DNA of 64,000 nt from Marinitoga piezophila KA3 (GTDB lineage: Bacteria; Thermotogota; Thermotogae; Petrotogales; Petrotogaceae), in contig NC_016751.1 in assembly GCF_000255135.1 (NCBI RefSeq), positions 1,116,001 through 1,180,000 on the forward strand, written 5' to 3'. The position numbers were made by a program, and so were the translations under genes. The notes under the pieces were generated by a model. The model saw nothing but the letters and a program-made list of their open reading frames with translations. It made no database searches and was not told where the DNA came from. Below, in pieces: positions 29,871 through 55,935 of the stretch (the first letter of the stretch is position 1; every line of letters begins with the position of its first letter).

Positions 29871-31040
29871 TTACCATAAAAATCCCAATAACCATAAAGG
29901 TATCTTATTCTTTAATGGCAAATCTATATCATCACGAATAACAAAATCCGAATTTTTAATCTTTTTATTTTTCCCACCAACCTCTATTTTTATTCCATTC
30001 CACACAAAATCTCCGTCCTGCTCATTCTTTGATGAAAATATTTTTCCTTTTTCTTTTAAAGCAAAAACAGTAAATGCTTCTCTGAACTTACCAATTTCGC
30101 CATTATATATATAATAATACGAAGGATCAGCCAGAAATATCTTTTCTCCTTTTGAATTTATTTTAAAATCCTTTTCCTTTAATACTATATTTATTAATTC
30201 GGCCTCTTCCATCACATTTAACAACTCATACAGTTTATTTTTGCTTAATTGCCATTCTTTTCCCATTCTTTCCACATTTATTGTAGGAATTTTAGAATAT
30301 ATTAAATATCCTATTATCGCTTTCATTAATTTTAAATGATTTTCTTTTATAGTATTTAAGAAAAAAGGAATATCGCTATATAATGTCTTTTCAAGAATAT
30401 TTTCCATTTTTTCAACATAATTATTTTCGAGAAAAAACGGACGTGTTCCAGAAGAAGCATAATCCTTAAACAATTTTAAAATATCCATATCTCTTATTTG
30501 ATTCATAAATCTGTCTTTTTCAATATTAAATGGATTTTCAATCTCCATAATCTCTTTATTTGTTAAAAAATGTATATACTCCCTAAAAGATAATAACGGT
30601 ATTCTAACCTTTACAAATCTCCTTGAAAGGTCAGCTATTCCTGTTCTAAGAATAATAGAACTACTATCGCTTATCCATATTTTCTTATCAGGATACGAAT
30701 CATACAATGCCTTTATATGTATACTCCATTTATTTAAATAATGCACTTCATCTATTATTATTCCATTATATCCCTGCAGAAAAACCTTTTCTCCAAGATC
30801 AAACAATGGAATAGCCGCTACTTTCGGATCATCACCAGATAGATAAAAAAAATTATTTTCCGCAGCCTTCATAAGCAAATATGTTGTCTTTCCAACACCA
30901 CGCGGCCCATATAATAACATCCCTCTTGTATCATCATATTTTTCTATTTTTTGAAAATACAACCTTTTTTTTTCAGGCAATGCATTTAAAAGCCTTTCTT
31001 TTTTCAATTCAAGCTGTTCAATAACATCTTCAATTTCCAT
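29871..31040 (-). CDS. AAA ATPase with DUF4143-like C-terminal domain
   Basis: The 389-residue protein has Walker A GPRGVGKTT near residue 46 and Walker B GIIIDEVHYL near 98. A winged-helix middle part and a C-terminal restriction-endonuclease-like region (FVWNGIKIEVGGKNKKIK) are as in the large AAA_14/DUF4143 family. These proteins are common in thermophiles; their role is unknown, possibly nucleic-acid or toxin-antitoxin related. The ATG at 31040 follows CGGAGGTG. An extended -10 lies at 31070-31078 (- strand). Confidence 0.8.
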   Translation of the reverse strand: MEIEDVIEQLELKKERLLNALPEKKRLYFQKIEKYDDTRGMLLYGPRGVGKTTYLLMKAAENNFFYLSGDDPKVAAIPLFDLGEKVFLQGYNGIIIDEVHYLNKWSIHIKALYDSYPDKKIWISDSSSIILRTGIADLSRRFVKVRIPLLSFREYIHFLTNKEIMEIENPFNIEKDRFMNQIRDMDILKLFKDYASSGTRPFFLENNYVEKMENILEKTLYSDIPFFLNTIKENHLKLMKAIIGYLIYSKIPTINVERMGKEWQLSKNKLYELLNVMEEAELINIVLKEKDFKINSKGEKIFLADPSYYYIYNGEIGKFREAFTVFALKEKGKIFSSKNEQDGDFVWNGIKIEVGGKNKKIKNSDFVIRDDIDLPLKNKIPLWLLGFLW

Positions 31041-31064
31041 TTTCTCACCTCCGTTCTCTTCCAA

Positions 31065-31293
31065 TACTTATTATATCACAATTCGTATTATTTTAATACT
31101 ATTTTTGATATTATTTTTATTTATCGTATTAATATAGAACGATTTTTATGATAAATCGTTCTGTTTTGATACGTGGCAAAACTACAAATCATTGAAAAAA
31201 AATTTAAAGTTCTTTTTTATTTTAAATTAGATATAAAAAATAGAAATAATAATATGAGAGAAGGCTTGAAAATTCCCGAAGAGAAACAATTAT
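31065..31293. other. non-coding stretch with promoter and hairpin
   Basis: Holds the extended -10 of the ATPase gene (TGATATAAT, - strand, TATAAT at 31070-31075). There is a 9-bp hairpin GAACGATTT / AAATCGTTC (31137-31161) and a degenerate piece (31176-31203) like the spacer of the repeat family at 54.2 kb. No gene seen. Confidence 0.5.
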
Positions 31294-31487
31294 GATTGAG
31301 AAAAATAAAAACGAACGAAAACTCGCAGGTTGCCCGAGAAAATCACGAATGGAGGCTGTCAAAAAAACAGGATGTTTTTTTGAGCGCAGCTTCTGCAGGG
31401 ATGCAGAATCTAAGCGACAGCCGGGAATGAGTGATTTTCGAGGATCAGCAACCAAGTCGTTTGAGGGAGTTTTTATTTTTCTCAATC
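31294..31487. repeat. structured dispersed element, copy A (candidate ncRNA or quasi-palindromic repeat)
   Basis: The 194-bp element folds into nested stems. P1 (19 bp) is GATTGAGAAAAATAAAAAC (31294-31312) with 31469-31487. P2 is GGTTGC (31328-31333) with GCAACC (31448-31453). P3 is GAAAATCAC (31338-31346) with 31431-31439. P4 is GGCTGTC (31354-31360) with GACAGCC (31416-31422). P5 is an 11-bp A/T hairpin (31359-31383). P6 is TTCTGCA-GGGA-TGCAGAA (31391-31408) with a GNRA-type loop. A second copy at 54311-54498 keeps P5-P6 but has different, still paired, outer stems. The element is noncoding in my reading. Confidence 0.8.
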
Positions 31488-31514
31488 AACAACAAAAAAG
31501 ACGAACATGGATGT

Positions 31515-31596
31515 GAGTCTGCAACGACCCCTGAGAACGAGCAATTTTCGAAGATTAGCACTCAAGTCGCATGAAAGAGCTTTTATTTTTTCCAAC
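31515..31596. repeat. 3' half-copy of the structured element
   Basis: Resembles the 3' arm of the element only: GACCCC, then GCAATTTTCG, GATTAGCACTCAAGTCG, and ends in GCTTTTATTTTTTCCAAC. It has no 5' arm beside it. Its last 18 nt are the exact reverse complement of the first 18 nt of the 5' half-unit at 54195. Confidence 0.7.
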
Positions 31597-31607
31597 ACAA
31601 AGAAACT

Positions 31608-32447
31608 TCAAAGGTAAATTATAAATGCTCCCAATATCAAAAATACCGTTCCAACAATTCTAATAGCAATCCTCTCCCCAAAAACAAACCTCGCCATTAT
31701 CGCCGTAACCAACGCCGACAACATAGAAACAGGTTCTGCAATACTTACATCAATATATCTAAACATATTCAACAATGCCACATAAGAATATGCATTAGAA
31801 ATTCCGCCGTTTATAAGTGGAAATATCTTTCTTTTCACAATAGAAATATGCGGTTTTATTGATTTAAACTTTATCAATGTAAAAATTAAAAAATACGTGC
31901 TAACAATTAAATATATGCTTATAGAATAACTCATAGAATCTATACCTTTTGCAAAATAACCATCAAAAGTCCTTCCAATTGCCATAAGCATGGAAGAAAT
32001 CAACATGGCAACAGCGCCTTTACTCTTTAGCAGATTTTTATAGGATTCCTTCATATTTACATCCTTTTTTAAATAAGAAACACCATAGAGCATAAATAAG
32101 CTTCCAAAAATCTTTTGAATAGTTATTGGCTCTCCTAAAAATATAAATGTTGTAATTATTAAAAAAATAACGTTCATATTATAAAGTGGCGCTATAACAG
32201 AAGCGTCCTCATTAGCCAATGCATAAACGTATAAATAAAAAGAAATTGCATAAATACTTCCACTTATCAGCGCAGCAATTATAGAATCTATTGTTAATTT
32301 ATAAAAAAACGGAAAAAAGGATAAAAATGAAAAAAAGAAAAACGCCCATGAAGAAATGAGCGCATCATCATCTGTTGTTATCTGCTTTCCTGCTATTCTC
32401 TCATATCCCAATAATATAATCCTTATTGCAGTCCATAAATACACCAT
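31608..32447 (-). CDS. EamA/DMT-family transporter
   Basis: Integral membrane protein of 279 residues with about ten hydrophobic segments arranged as two EamA repeats. The conserved Pro/Glu near the end of each repeat is visible (IFLGEPITIQKIFGS near 103-118 and VFGERIAIRIVGTVF near 255). Substrate unknown; family members export amino acids, nucleosides or other metabolites. It directly borders the repeat region. Confidence 0.8.
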   Translation of the reverse strand: MVYLWTAIRIILLGYERIAGKQITTDDDALISSWAFFFFSFLSFFPFFYKLTIDSIIAALISGSIYAISFYLYVYALANEDASVIAPLYNMNVIFLIITTFIFLGEPITIQKIFGSLFMLYGVSYLKKDVNMKESYKNLLKSKGAVAMLISSMLMAIGRTFDGYFAKGIDSMSYSISIYLIVSTYFLIFTLIKFKSIKPHISIVKRKIFPLINGGISNAYSYVALLNMFRYIDVSIAEPVSMLSALVTAIMARFVFGERIAIRIVGTVFLILGAFIIYL

Positions 32448-49927: not shown

Positions 49928-50048
49928 TACCCCTTCCGAGCCTTTTCTCCTAAAACGCAAGCTGCGTCATGGAAAAAGGCCAATGGGTATAACTGGAAAC
50001 GGTTATGCCTCCCGTGTTTGGAAAGGAAGGAAAATTCTAAAGGGGGGG
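49928..50048 (+). ncRNA. molybdenum/tungsten cofactor (Moco/Tuco) riboswitch
   Basis: The leader of the AOR gene fits the Moco RNA motif. P1 is CCTTCC (49932-49937) with GGAAGG (50025-50030). P2 is GCCTTTT (49940-49946) with AAAAGGC (49974-49980). A small P3-like hairpin ACGCA-AGC-TGCGT lies at 49955-49967. ATAACTG-GAAA-CGGTTAT (49989-50006) is a GNRA hairpin, and the conserved GCCTCCCGTGTTTGGAAAGG follows. The E. coli moaA leader has nearly the same GCCUCCCG..UGGAAAGG end. CCCCTT (49930-49935) can instead pair with the ribosome site AAGGGG (50040-50045), which suggests translational switching. The downstream AOR favours a tungsten form. Confidence 0.88.
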
Positions 50049-50053
50049 TAAAA

Positions 50054-51853
50054 GTGTCATTTAACGGAAAAGTATTAAGAGTAAATCTTACCGAAAAAAG
50101 CGTAAAGGTTGAGAAACTGCCAGAGGATTATGAGCTCTATCTTGGTGGAAGAGGCCTTGCAACAAAGATGTTCTACGACGAAGTAGGCCCTCAAGTGGAT
50201 CCCTTCTCACCTGAAAACAAATTATTCTTTGCAACAGGTCCTTTAACAGGAACTGCCGCACCAACAGGTGGAAGATATATGGTAGTAACCAAAGGTCCGT
50301 TGACAGGCACCATAGCTTCAAGTAACTCAGGTGGTTATTTTGGTGCAGAATTGAAATTTGCAGGTTATGACATGATTATTATTGAAGGAAAAGCTGAAAA
50401 ACCTGTATACCTTATGATTAAAGATGATCATGTAGAACTTAAAGATGCTTCTCATCTCTGGGGAAAAGACGTATTTGAAACCACTGATATAATGATGGAA
50501 GAAATTGGAGATCCAAGAGCAAGAGTTGCATGTATTGGACCAGCAGGAGAAAAATTGGTAAAATTTGCAGCTATTATGAACGATAAACATAGAGCTGCAG
50601 GTAGAACCGGTGTTGGTGCAGTAATGGGGAGCAAAAACTTCAAAGGTATCGTTGTAAGAGGAACAAAGAGACCTGAGGTAAAAGATCCAGCAAAATTCAT
50701 GGAAGTTGTAAAAGAAAAAATCAAAAAATTAAGAGAAAATGGAATTACCGGTGAAGGTTTGCCTAAACTGGGAACCAAGGTTCTCGATAATATTATTAAT
50801 CAAAACGGATTATATCCAACAAGAAACTTCCAGGATTCAGTATTTGAATTTACAGATGAAGTTTCCGGCGAAGCGCTTGTTGAAAAAGGATATCTCGTTA
50901 AAAATATGCCATGTTTTGGCTGTCCTATAGCCTGTGGAAGAAGAGTAACACTTCCTAACGGCATTGAAACAGAAGGTCCAGAATATGAAACTGGTTGGGC
51001 ATTTGGGCCAGATTGTGGCGTTTCAGACTTAATTGCTATAGTTGAAGCAAACCATCTATGTAATAAATATGGTTTAGACACAATTTCAGCAGGTTCAACA
51101 ATTGCATGTGCAATGGAAATGTATGAAAAGGGCATTGTAAAGAAAGAAGAATTAGGAAATGGTCCTGAATTGAAATTTGGAAGTTCAGAAGCTGTAGTAT
51201 TCTATACAAAACAAATTGGATTAAGAGAAGGAATTGGCGACAAATTAGCAGAAGGTTCTTATAGATTTGCAGAAAGTTATGGACATCCTGAATTTGCCAT
51301 GGTTGTTAAAAAACAGGAAATTCCTGCATACGATCCAAGGGGTGCTCAGGGACATGGTCTTGAATACGCAACAAGTAACAGAGGCGGATGTCACGTTAGA
51401 GGTTATATGATTTCTCCTGAAATTCTCGGTGCTCCTGAAAAAATAGATCCACAAGCACTTGAAGGAAAAGCAGAATGGGTTAAAGCATTCCAGGATTTAA
51501 CAGCAGTTATAGATGCTGGAGGATTATGTTTATTCACCTCATTCGCATTAGGTGCTGACGATTATGCTGATTTAATAAACGCTGCATTGGGATGGAATAA
51601 ATCAACAGAAGAAATATTAAAAATTGGCGAAAGAATATGGAATCTTGAAAGAAAATTCAATTTAGAAGCAGGAATCGATCCTTCACAGGATACACTTCCA
51701 AAGAGATTGCTCGAAGAACCTGTAAAAGAAGGTCCAAACAAAGGTCAGGTTGTTCATCTTGATCAATTGCTTCCAAAATATTACGAAGTAAGAGGATGGA
51801 GCAAAGAAGGTATTCCTACAGAAGAAAAACTCAAGGAGTTAGGAATTCTATGA
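50054..51853 (+). CDS. aor: aldehyde ferredoxin oxidoreductase family protein (tungsten enzyme)
   Basis: Oxidises aldehydes to acids with ferredoxin as acceptor, using a tungstopterin and a 4Fe-4S cluster. 599 residues, standard length. The N-terminal half has LYLGGRGLATKMFYDE and NSGGYFGAELKFAGYD. Cluster ligands are CFGCPIACGR (CxxCxxxC) near 290 and the later Cys in GGLCLF near 490. GTG at 50054 after AGGGGGGG gives the usual start SFNGKVLRVNL; longer frames run into the riboswitch. moaD overlaps its stop by ATGA. Confidence 0.94.
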   Translation: MSFNGKVLRVNLTEKSVKVEKLPEDYELYLGGRGLATKMFYDEVGPQVDPFSPENKLFFATGPLTGTAAPTGGRYMVVTKGPLTGTIASSNSGGYFGAELKFAGYDMIIIEGKAEKPVYLMIKDDHVELKDASHLWGKDVFETTDIMMEEIGDPRARVACIGPAGEKLVKFAAIMNDKHRAAGRTGVGAVMGSKNFKGIVVRGTKRPEVKDPAKFMEVVKEKIKKLRENGITGEGLPKLGTKVLDNIINQNGLYPTRNFQDSVFEFTDEVSGEALVEKGYLVKNMPCFGCPIACGRRVTLPNGIETEGPEYETGWAFGPDCGVSDLIAIVEANHLCNKYGLDTISAGSTIACAMEMYEKGIVKKEELGNGPELKFGSSEAVVFYTKQIGLREGIGDKLAEGSYRFAESYGHPEFAMVVKKQEIPAYDPRGAQGHGLEYATSNRGGCHVRGYMISPEILGAPEKIDPQALEGKAEWVKAFQDLTAVIDAGGLCLFTSFALGADDYADLINAALGWNKSTEEILKIGERIWNLERKFNLEAGIDPSQDTLPKRLLEEPVKEGPNKGQVVHLDQLLPKYYEVRGWSKEGIPTEEKLKELGIL

Positions 51854-52134: not shown

Positions 52135-54045
52135 TTATTCCTTTATAAAATTCCCTGTATCTTTTAAGAGATATCCACCCAGCTTCTCTGCATCTCTTTT
52201 AAACTCCTCAGAACCTATTATTTCCTGAATCAACTTAAATCTCGGATCATCTATAAAAGAAGGATGTATTAAAAGATCATATCTCTCATGTGCCACTGGC
52301 ACAAAATCAAGATCATAAATATTGGCAGCTGCTTTTATTCCAAGACCCACATCTGCCATATCTTTTTTTATTTTCAATGCAAGATTAACATGTGAATACT
52401 CTTCATCAGAATAACCATGAATCCTATCCGGAGAAATACCTTCCTTCTCAAGATGATAATCCAATAAAATCCTTGTTCCTGCAGTTTTTTGCCTGTTAAT
52501 ATATCTAACTCCGTCCTTTGTAAGATCTGAAAAAGTCTTTATACCTTTAGGATTTCCTTTTTGAACAATAAATCCCTGTTCCCTATACGAAAGATTCATC
52601 AATGTATACTCATCAATATACTCTTCAATATAACTGATATTATACTCACCACTTTCAGGATCAAGAAGGTGCATTCCAGCCATATGAGCATACCCTTTTG
52701 CTATAGCCATTATTCCACCAATACTTCCAACATTAGCAGAAACAATATTTATATTCTTATCATATCTCTTTATATAATCAGCAAGTAAATCTATCAACAA
52801 ATCATGACTTCCAATAACAAGAATATTATTATCCACTATTTCTTTAGAACGCTTAAGATGTATATTTATCTCTTCGCCATCTTCCAATACCTCTATACCC
52901 TTTTCTATATACACAACACCATCCTGTTTCGATACTGCTGAAATATTAGCGGCACCTCTCTTTAAAGGAATAGCTACATATCTATCTTCAACCTTACCAA
53001 CACCAACCCTTAAATATTCCTTTTCTGTAATGGAAGAATGAATTCTCTTTCCAGATACACCTTCAATAATTTCATTGTCATAATATACTTCTTCCTTTGT
53101 TTTATTCAATATCAAAGGTTTCACTATATCCTCAAGTATTATATTGCACGAAACAGGAAATCCCGGCAACCCAATAACAGGTTTATCCTTAACAATACCT
53201 AAAATAGCAGGTTTTCCCGGTTTTATATTCAATCCATGAACAATAACCTTACCCAGCTCATTTACCGCATGAAAGGTAAAATCCTTTGAACCAGCTGAAG
53301 AACCAGCATTTAAAAGAATTAGATCATATTTTTCTATATTCTCTTCTATTGTTTTTTTCAAAACTTCCAGATCATCCGGCAATATACTATGCACATCAAC
53401 ACTTGCATTGTATTTCTCAATAAAATTCTTAATCATAGCAGAATTGGTTTCTGGAATCTGAAATTCTTCTGTTTTCTCTTCTGGTTTAACAATTTCATTT
53501 CCTGTTGGAATTAACAACACATTTAATTCTCTTAAAACAGGAATCTTAAATACGCCAGCCATCAATAAAAAGGATATATCATTTTCTGTAAGGGTATGAT
53601 ATCTTGGGAATAACATTTCGCCTTTACATATATCCTCTCCAACCTTTCGAACATCCTTATACGGAAAAACGCTATTTCTAATTTTAATCTTCGTATCATC
53701 AATAATCTCTATATTCTCTATCATTATTACCGCATCATATGGCTTATTAATAGGATAACCAGTATTTATATATTCAAAATCCTTCTCTAATTCCAGAATC
53801 TTTGGACTGCTTTCTGTTGCACCATATGTATGTTTGCTGATAACCGCCACACCATCCATAGCGCTACTATTATAAGACGGAACATTCTCATTGGCAAAAA
53901 TTGGTTCAGCAGTAACCCTACCAGAACTTTCTCTTACATCGATAACTTCTTTTTCATCATTCCTAAAATACTCTTCCAGCTTACTAAAAAAGAGTTCAAC
54001 CCCCGCTTCAATATCCATCTTATTCAAATAAAATCTCCTTTTCAA
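52135..54045 (-). CDS. moeA: molybdopterin molybdenumtransferase MoeA fused to a PBP-like domain
   Basis: Inserts the metal into molybdopterin. 636 residues: MoeA domains (about 1-400) with YNSSAMDGVAV, LLIPTGNEIV, NAGSSAGSKDFT and the LPGFPVSC loop. A C-terminal ~220-residue periplasmic-binding-like domain follows (PF12727 type: ILVIGSHDLLIDLLADYI; GTRILLDYHLEKEG), which may bind molybdate or tungstate or a precursor. The start is TTG at 54045 with AGGGGGG 6 nt upstream. Convergent with moaD; only 3 nt separate the stop codons. Confidence 0.9.
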   Translation of the reverse strand: MKRRFYLNKMDIEAGVELFFSKLEEYFRNDEKEVIDVRESSGRVTAEPIFANENVPSYNSSAMDGVAVISKHTYGATESSPKILELEKDFEYINTGYPINKPYDAVIMIENIEIIDDTKIKIRNSVFPYKDVRKVGEDICKGEMLFPRYHTLTENDISFLLMAGVFKIPVLRELNVLLIPTGNEIVKPEEKTEEFQIPETNSAMIKNFIEKYNASVDVHSILPDDLEVLKKTIEENIEKYDLILLNAGSSAGSKDFTFHAVNELGKVIVHGLNIKPGKPAILGIVKDKPVIGLPGFPVSCNIILEDIVKPLILNKTKEEVYYDNEIIEGVSGKRIHSSITEKEYLRVGVGKVEDRYVAIPLKRGAANISAVSKQDGVVYIEKGIEVLEDGEEINIHLKRSKEIVDNNILVIGSHDLLIDLLADYIKRYDKNINIVSANVGSIGGIMAIAKGYAHMAGMHLLDPESGEYNISYIEEYIDEYTLMNLSYREQGFIVQKGNPKGIKTFSDLTKDGVRYINRQKTAGTRILLDYHLEKEGISPDRIHGYSDEEYSHVNLALKIKKDMADVGLGIKAAANIYDLDFVPVAHERYDLLIHPSFIDDPRFKLIQEIIGSEEFKRDAEKLGGYLLKDTGNFIKE

Positions 54046-54194: not shown

Positions 54195-54310
54195 GTTGGA
54201 AAAAATAAAAGCGAGTGAAGGCTCGCAGAGTGTCCAAGGTAAAATTACAAACGATTGAAAAAATAAAAGTGAATGAATACTCGCAGAGTGTCCAAGGTAA
54301 AATTACAAAT
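54195..54310. repeat. two tandem 58-bp half-units of the element's 5' arm
   Basis: Units start at 54195 and 54253 and lead into a third at 54311 that continues as the full element. Each has a P1 5' arm (GTTGGAAAAAATAAAAGC or GATTGAAAAAATAAAAGT), the conserved CTCGCAG, a P2 5' arm (AGTGTCC) and the spacer AAGGTAAAATTACAAA. No 3' arms follow them. Confidence 0.75.
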
Positions 54311-54498
54311 GATTGAAAAAATAAAAGTGAATGAATACTCGCAGAGCACCCGAAAAAAACTGCGAATGGAGAGGGTCAAAAAAACAGGATGTTTTTTTGA
54401 GCGCAGCTTCTGCAGGGATGCAGAATCTAAGCGACCCCGCGAATATGAGCAGTTTTTGAGGATTAGTGCTCAAATCGTATGAATGAACTTTTATTTTT
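54311..54498. repeat. structured dispersed element, copy B (candidate ncRNA or quasi-palindromic repeat)
   Basis: Folds as copy A. P1 is AAAAATAAAAGT (54317-54328) with ACTTTTATTTTT (54487-54498). P2 is GAGCAC (54344-54349) with GTGCTC (54466-54471). P3 is AAAAACTGC (54355-54363) with GCAGTTTTT (54449-54457). P4 is GGGTC (54373-54377) with GACCC (54433-54437). P5 (54376-54400) and P6 (54408-54425) are identical to copy A. P2, P3 and P4 differ from copy A on both arms, so pairing is kept by compensating changes. Confidence 0.8.
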
Positions 54499-54702: not shown

Positions 54703-55935
54703 ATGAACAAGTATAAACTTCGTTGTATAAGTTGTGGAAAAGTATATGAACCTGATGAAGTTGAATATACATGTCCAGTTTGCGGAGATAGGTTAGGAAC
54801 ACTTGAAGTAATATATGATTATGATGAAATAAAGGTTAAAAAGGAAGACTTTGGAAAATTCGATAATATATGGCAGTTTGAGAAAATTTTACCAATAAGC
54901 GACAAAGCTTACAAAACGCCTTTGCATGTTGGCGGAACACCGTATTACGAACATAAAAAACTCGCTGAAGAATTAGGAATTAAAAATCTTTTTATAAAAT
55001 ACGACGGAACAAATCCAACTGCATCTTACAAAGATAGAGCATCAGCCCTGGCTATAGCCAAGGCATATGAAAAAGGATATGAAACAATATATTGTGCTTC
55101 AACAGGCAATGCAGCCAGTTCTTTAGCAGGATTATCAGCACCAACAAAATTAAAAACATATATATTTTTACCCGCTTCAGCACCAATTGCAAAAATATCA
55201 CAACTTTTCATATACGGTGCAAACGTTATCCCAATAGACGGTACATATGATGAAGCATTTGATATTTCACTAAAAATTGGTGAAGAAAATGGATGGTATT
55301 GCAGAAACTCGGCAATTAATCCATATTTACTTGAAGGCAAAAAAACCGGAGCTCTTGAAATAGCTGTTCAAAGCAATTGGGATGTTCCAGATTACGTACT
55401 TGTAAGCGTTGGCGATGGTACAGTTATCAGTTCATTCTACAAAGGATTTTACGATTTCTATAAACTTGGATTAATAGATAAAATCCCAAGAATTATTGGT
55501 GTTCAGGCTGAAGGTGCCGCTGCAATAAAAAGAGTATTTGATAAAGGTGAACCATTTATGCCTGACGACATAGAAACACATACAATTGCAGATAGCATAA
55601 GCGTTGGAAAACCGCGCGATGTAGTAAAAGCCTGCAAATACGTAAAAGCAAGTGGCGGATATTTCGTAAGTGTAAGTGATGAAGAAATATTAAATGCTAT
55701 ATATGAATTATCAATAAAGACCGGTATATTTGCCGAACCCGCCGGAGCTACTTCATACGCTGGTCTGAAAAGGATTTCAGAAAAAATTGGAAAAGATTCA
55801 ACTGTTGCAATTGTAGTAACAGGAAATGGATTAAAAGATGTAAAAGCAATAGAAAGCTTTGTAAATCTAAAAAAAGTAAAACCAGACTTAAATGCTGTTA
55901 GAGAGGTGATTAAGGAATATGAAAATAAAATTTAA
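54703..55935 (+). CDS. thrC: threonine synthase-like PLP enzyme with zinc ribbon
   Basis: 410 residues: an N-terminal Cys4 zinc ribbon (C8, C11, C24, C27), then a fold-type II PLP domain with K110 in TNPTASYKDRA, STGNAASSLAGL, the SVGDGTVISSFYKGF phosphate region and EPAGATSYAGL. Threonine synthase normally has NPTGSFKDRG; the changed residues around the lysine and the operon context leave room for another substrate. The end overlaps the next gene by 17 nt, so it is coupled to a molybdenum hydroxylase operon rather than to threonine genes. ridA, encoding an enamine/imine deaminase, lies downstream. Confidence 0.75.
   Translation: MNKYKLRCISCGKVYEPDEVEYTCPVCGDRLGTLEVIYDYDEIKVKKEDFGKFDNIWQFEKILPISDKAYKTPLHVGGTPYYEHKKLAEELGIKNLFIKYDGTNPTASYKDRASALAIAKAYEKGYETIYCASTGNAASSLAGLSAPTKLKTYIFLPASAPIAKISQLFIYGANVIPIDGTYDEAFDISLKIGEENGWYCRNSAINPYLLEGKKTGALEIAVQSNWDVPDYVLVSVGDGTVISSFYKGFYDFYKLGLIDKIPRIIGVQAEGAAAIKRVFDKGEPFMPDDIETHTIADSISVGKPRDVVKACKYVKASGGYFVSVSDEEILNAIYELSIKTGIFAEPAGATSYAGLKRISEKIGKDSTVAIVVTGNGLKDVKAIESFVNLKKVKPDLNAVREVIKEYENKI

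Follow-up and report, generated by a model that had tools for sequence, protein, structure and literature searches.

The two multi-stem elements in the window, which is the whole stretch of 64,000 nucleotides from Marinitoga piezophila KA3 analysed here, are members of an interspersed family with about 35 copies in this genome. Judged by its matches to the Rfam model, the family is RF01731 (TwoAYGGAY), the class that the preliminary description had left unrecognised. The reading that we place just on the probable side is that of a nonautonomous mobile element that carries, as its payload, an RNA of the TwoAYGGAY type with predicted CsrA binding.

Copies in the window and across the genus

Copy A occupies positions 31293-31488 (+), with outer inverted arms at its two ends (31293-31333 and 31448-31488). 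The conserved structured core at 31313-31467 (+) is matched by the covariance model with 180.4 bits. It contains hairpin 1 at 31361-31381 (+; AAAAAAACA-GGA-TGTTTTTTT), with the CsrB-type repeat CAGGATG at 31368-31374, and hairpin 2 at 31391-31408 (+; TTCTGCA-GGGA-TGCAGAA), with a match to CANGGANG at 31396-31403. Copy B spans 54317-54498 (+; arms 54317-54349 with 54466-54498), and its core at 54329-54485 (+) reaches 175.0 bits. Both hairpins have the same sequences as in copy A; hairpin 1 lies at 54378-54398 (+; CAGGATG at 54385-54391) and hairpin 2 at 54408-54425 (+; CANGGANG match at 54413-54420).

Inspection of the sequence located both copies at the places given in the preliminary description. 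They share a centre of approximately 60 nt that is essentially identical (TCAAAAAAACAGGATGTTTTTTTGAGCGCAGCTTCTGCAGGGATGCAGAATCTAAGCGAC), and the surrounding stems differ between the copies yet pair in each, namely GGTTGC/GCAACC in A versus GAGCAC/GTGCTC in B, AAAATCAC/GTGATTTT versus AAAAACTGC/GCAGTTTTT, and GGCTGTC/GACAGCC versus GGGTC/GACCC. The covariance model finds exactly two full-length matches in the window (A and B, 180 and 175 bits). The claim of two copies thus stands in so far as both are real, but there are more of them, both in the genome as a whole and as fragments adjoining each window copy. Immediately after copy A the 3' half of a second copy is found (31500-31595, +), which includes the hairpin GACGAACATGGATGTGAGTC at 31500-31519; its stems are unlike those of copy A and it resembles the 3' half of the copies of the L070/L071 type. 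Two tandem 58-nt repeats consisting of 5'-arm fragments of the element immediately precede copy B (54199-54314, +), and this array seems to have grown by partial duplication. A further inverted repeat was observed upstream of copy A at 31125-31173 (21 nt, 7-nt loop, 86% complementary; CGTATTAATATAGAACGATTT / AAATCGTTCTGTTTTGATACG).

Neither copy overlaps a plausible gene. The neighbours, named from their translations, are an ATPase-like ORF (29871-31064, −) and an EamA-type transporter ORF (31608-32447, −) for copy A, and a moeA-like ORF (52135-54045, −) and a threonine-synthase-like ORF (54703-55935, +) for copy B.

Genome-wide, BLAST returned 21 matches and the covariance model R1, built from an alignment of 25 copies (A1), returned 35; the copy counts reported here are those of model searches. 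R1 also matched the other Marinitoga genomes, with 39 matches in G003, 71 in G005, 24 in G002, five in G004 and one each in G001 and G006. In a first survey of relatives, each of the seven Marinitoga genomes had matches and genomes outside the genus had none. When 103 genomes of the phylum were searched with R1, just one from beyond the genus was matched, G010 from a sister genus, with six matches of which five are full length (best E 2e-8, a rough value as R1 was calibrated briefly). The covariance-model search proposed in the preliminary description therefore yields tens of copies per genome, throughout the genus and also in a sister genus.

Covariation and the nature of the structure

The copies share a fold that consists of a long stem, internal loops and a three-way junction with two hairpins, and the predicted folds are very stable (about −68 to −83 kcal/mol per 250 nt). 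RNAalifold assigned 46 pairs to A1, 24 of them with changes on both sides. Standard pairing is kept in 99.0% of the pair cells of A1 compared to 87.1% in 500 shuffles, and shifting the partner strand by 1-3 columns lowers it to 33-50%. The alignment has a covariation score of 0.399 compared to 0.165 in the shuffles, none of the 500 being as high; the copies are related to each other and all such counts are non-independent. Covariation is far above both controls, and together with the copies found by model search across the genus and the sister genus it supports the earlier claim of a structure under selection, in RNA or in single-stranded DNA.

On the element strand A1 has 13 G·U cells against 2 A·C cells, and A2, an alignment of 114 matches obtained after adding 80 further stretches, has 72 against 34; 10 of the 34 A·C cells in A2 fall on the loop-closing A position (GGATG to GGACG). 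This excess of G·U on the element strand favours RNA. Tandem G·A motifs make up the internal loops and all lie on one strand, e.g. CGAATG with ATATGA.

It had been cautioned that a DNA mechanism, template-switch repair of quasi-palindromes, can also create matching changes. This applies in part to the outermost stems, which are locus-specific and derive in part from an invaded hairpin (L072, L075). It does not explain the core, in which both the loops and the unpaired G·A motifs keep their sequence on a single strand and G·U intermediates predominate. The evidence favours a structure formed by RNA rather than by duplex DNA, with single-stranded DNA as a less probable alternative.

The TwoAYGGAY family and its CsrA-type loops

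The relation to RF01731 first surfaced through a scan of the relatives' subfamilies. Four copies of M. piezophila exceed the gathering score of 43 bits (L008 with 50.8, L006 with 48.0, L010 with 45.5 and L002 with 43.4 bits) and align with the window copies, copies A and B themselves being below that score. The cut-off is also passed by copies from G002, G003 and G005 (L111 with 46.2 bits, L136, L094, L110, L092, L106 and L109). A scan of the window with Rfam at gathering scores returned just a Moco riboswitch and a tRNA. The former, a molybdenum/tungsten cofactor riboswitch (RF01055, 49922-50044, +, 84.5 bits), immediately precedes an ORF at 50018-51853 that is aldehyde:ferredoxin oxidoreductase-like by translation.

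Across the phylum the RF01731 model matches in Marinitoga only. In the reverse direction R1, which contains Marinitoga copies only, recovers RF01731 members from one Lachnospiraceae MAG and two Oceanospirillaceae MAGs (E 5e-8 to 3.5e-12). The assignment is thus reciprocal, with copies of M. piezophila and of sister species exceeding the gathering score along the entire length of the model, and the two-hairpin core, the GGAY loops and the tandem G·A motifs are common to the Marinitoga element and TwoAYGGAY. The pair of hairpins with AYGGAY-type terminal loops on a short linker is likewise present, judged by loops of the type CA(N)GGANG. In the original report TwoAYGGAY was described as probably RNA and as occurring in the human gut, in gamma-Proteobacteria and in Clostridiales (Weinberg et al. 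2010, PMC2864571); Thermotogota are not among these published taxa, and the family is found there here. For TwoAYGGAY the accessible literature makes no mention of tens of copies, of terminal inverted repeats, of target duplications or of nesting, and we found no prior report of its mobility there.

A connection with CsrA was already proposed in 2014 by Gardner and Eldai. There, the loops were classed as CsrA-type, tandem G·A motifs were noted, and TwoAYGGAY was proposed to comprise CsrA-binding small RNAs in Clostridia (Gardner and Eldai 2014, PMC4333381). On sequence grounds the Marinitoga copies lend independent support to this proposal.

The consensus CA(N)GGANG is present in both loops in 97 of 111 near-complete copies and in at least one loop in 110 of the 111. 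The GGA is missing from hairpin 2 in seven copies (ACACGATGT). In the window copies hairpin 1 has CAGGATG and hairpin 2 has CAGGGATG; their hairpin 1 (ACAGGATGT) is without the Y preceding GG. The exact motif ACANGGATGT alone is too weak a criterion, with one match in the window against 0.36 expected. Around the loops the stems are highly diverse, both in hairpin 1 (AAAAAAACA/TGTTTTTTT, AAAATCACA/TGTGATTTT, AATTTTGCA/TGCAAAATT) and in hairpin 2 (TTCTGCA, TTCCCCA, CGAACA, CGAGCA, TTATCCA and others). The loop-closing C-G pair is near-invariant (105 and 101 of 108 distinct rows for the two hairpins), and in hairpin 2 the next pair outward covaries (A-T 52, G-C 28, C-G 13, T-A 13). Loops that stay constant while the stems change are the pattern predicted by CsrA recognition. 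On the element strand 114 CsrA-type hairpins occur in 14.4 kb of elements, compared to none on the antisense strand and five in 397 kb outside, a count that is biased, since copies with GGA loops had gone into the search model.

The GGA loops fit the consensus of CsrA/RsmE, as expected for a CsrA-sequestering small RNA. The CsrA consensus is (A/U)CANGGANG(U/A) (PMC6692469), and the repeats of CsrB are CAGGA(U/A/C)G with an ANGGAN hexaloop (PMC7652899). A CsrA dimer bridges sites that are 10-63 nt apart (PMC7652899), and the GGA motifs within one RNA of the present family are spaced 26-29 nt. Very stable stems are possibly suboptimal for CsrA (PMC7652899). RF01731 and CsrB are placed in a common Rfam clan (CL00106, checked on the csrB locus of E. 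coli), and the loop hairpins of type CAGGA(U/A/C)G or ANGGAN are shared with CsrB, CsrC and RsmX/Y/Z. There is no sequence homology to these RNAs, however, and RNAs of the CsrB type have been reported from Gammaproteobacteria. The arrangement also differs, as CsrB carries 22 GGA motifs on one long RNA (PMC7652899), whereas the Marinitoga element has two per RNA and many gene copies. CsrA-site loops alone are no proof of a sequestration role.

The host encodes CsrA. Each of the seven Marinitoga genomes has a csrA gene, and the protein of M. piezophila (L037, 1426-1683) retains M-L-x-L-x-R and YREE and matches CsrA and RsmE structures by sequence, including the RsmE-RNA entry 2JPP. It adjoins a FliW-like ORF (L037, 1667-2647, −, 326 aa), which overlaps the csrA start and apparently comprises two tandem FliW domains. 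Co-occurrence with csrA was discarded as evidence, since csrA is present in 20 of 21 genomes of the bacterial family, element-free ones included. Literature searches on Marinitoga and either CsrA or interspersed repeats found nothing relevant.

Mobility, alternative readings and biological meaning

The copies end in terminal inverted repeats of several kinds, and target duplications comprise either 9-12 bp or an entire transcription-terminator hairpin (18-24 nt). The evidence for duplication comes from two shells, the CAGACTG and the TGTC shell, the window copies being situated in mosaics. The CAGACTG shell (CAGACTGTTGACAAA) of G002 and G003 is located at intrinsic terminators, whose hairpin is duplicated in full, one copy on each side of the shell. 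Exact boundary duplications of 18-24 nt were found in 7 of its 18 copies, and words of at least 12 nt are shared by the flanks in 10 of 18, compared to 1% for mismatched flanks. In the TGTC shell, mostly from G005, the two flanks of most of its 15 copies have words of approximately 9-12 nt in common, which lie at a fixed offset. We know of no transposase that duplicates a whole terminator hairpin upon insertion. Shells with the ends CAGACTGTTGACAAA ... TTTGTCTACAAACTG were observed to insert at terminators at L101, L103, L104, L105, L144, L149 and other loci of G002 and G003. In M. piezophila, L072 and L075 are apparent insertions into the loops of terminator-like hairpins, and copies are nested in one another, as in L014, where an A-type element replaces hairpin 1 of a larger relative. 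The element is absent from the loci of relatives that are orthologous to those of both window copies, where the gene order differs too. Searches with two terminal sequences gave no evident autonomous, transposase-bearing partner.

With these features the element resembles MITEs and REP/BIME sequences, which are likewise short, non-coding, intergenic and multicopy with inverted termini and target duplications. It could be a palindromic MITE at the level of DNA, with its hairpins recognised by a transposase as cruciform or single-stranded DNA and without a role as RNA. Inverted termini, target duplications, insertion at or inside terminator hairpins, nesting and an orientation to genes that is not fixed all agree with this. 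Tandem G·A pairs are stable in single-stranded DNA too, which counts in the same direction. We nevertheless consider this reading unlikely. A cruciform is strand-symmetric, yet the loops, the G·A motifs and the G·U bias are all one-stranded. The same core with its three-way junction is conserved within shells that have different ends and duplication lengths, and one shell duplicates a complete terminator hairpin, both of which set the element apart from MITEs and REP/BIME. Moreover, the CAGACTG shell is equally mobile with an unrelated interior (L176-L183, with hairpins of the TTTCGCTTCGCGAAA type and without GGA loops), so that the core is dispensable for movement.

A second alternative is a cis-acting mRNA element, copies of which would provide particular genes with CsrA sites in 5' or 3' untranslated regions. 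Rfam labels RF01731 as Cis-reg, and, on the basis of ORF calls, all copies are intergenic and 29 of 30 scored contexts in M. piezophila are upstream of at least one gene, with one convergent. In every species, however, the copies face their neighbouring genes in either direction, G003 and G002 have many convergent sites, and orthologous genes of relatives have no copies upstream. The published score of the family likewise reads 'probably not' cis-regulatory (Weinberg et al. 2010, PMC2864571). We give this alternative little credence, and a fixed cis-regulatory position was rejected on account of the mixed orientation and the absence of the element from orthologous upstream regions. Least credence is given to a REP-like terminator or mRNA-stabilising palindrome, useful or neutral to the host and spreading with it, since the very stable folds, the U-rich 3' arms and the position between genes and at terminators would suit it, but terminators require neither a three-way junction, nor conserved asymmetric internal loops, nor CANGGANG loops, and one subfamily already has genuine terminators flanking the element on both sides.

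A mobile element with a CsrA-binding RNA as payload could act as follows. Moved by a putative mobilising enzyme and once transcribed, it would form a long stem, interrupted by tandem G·A internal loops, and a three-way junction presenting two (A)CA(N)GGANG(U) hairpins, and a single CsrA dimer would be expected to grip both loops of one RNA. Many copies would then titrate CsrA, or put CsrA sites into neighbouring transcripts, alongside the protein antagonist FliW. A promoter-like sequence (TTGACA-16/17-AATAAT/TAATAT) ending just upstream of the RNA start, together with a terminator copy downstream of the RNA, was found in the CAGACTG subfamily of G002 and G003 only; a conserved promoter common to all copies was not found, nor is one recognisable at the window copies.

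RF01731 is multicopy elsewhere as well, with 23 and 7 matches in the two Oceanospirillaceae MAGs and 8 in the Lachnospiraceae MAG. At L211, L214 and L217 of the latter the outermost stem of approximately 20 bp is perfect and locus-specific, e.g. GTGCTTGGGGGATTAGCAT/ATGCTAATCCCCCAAGCAC. A wider reading, possible though doubtful, is that the TwoAYGGAY class as a whole comprises mobile genes for CsrA-binding RNAs that insert at terminator hairpins, one subfamily forming promoter-RNA-terminator units insulated by the duplicated terminator, and that copy number sets the titration of CsrA alongside FliW. The multicopy occurrence fits this (up to 71 in Marinitoga, 23 in an Oceanospirillaceae MAG, 8 in the Lachnospiraceae MAG).

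In the literature since 2010 we found no tested function for TwoAYGGAY, and the link to CsrA made in 2014 rested on loop motifs alone. The Marinitoga copies add independent evidence in that the identity of the loops is held while the stems change. They also add Thermotogota to the range of the family and document its spread, in at least one genus, as a mobile element that nests. Should the RNA bind CsrA, a global RNA regulator would receive binding sites from a transposable element, in lineages that are thought to control CsrA mainly via FliW. The wider reading of the class, if true, would amount to a transposable element that tunes a global post-transcriptional regulator.
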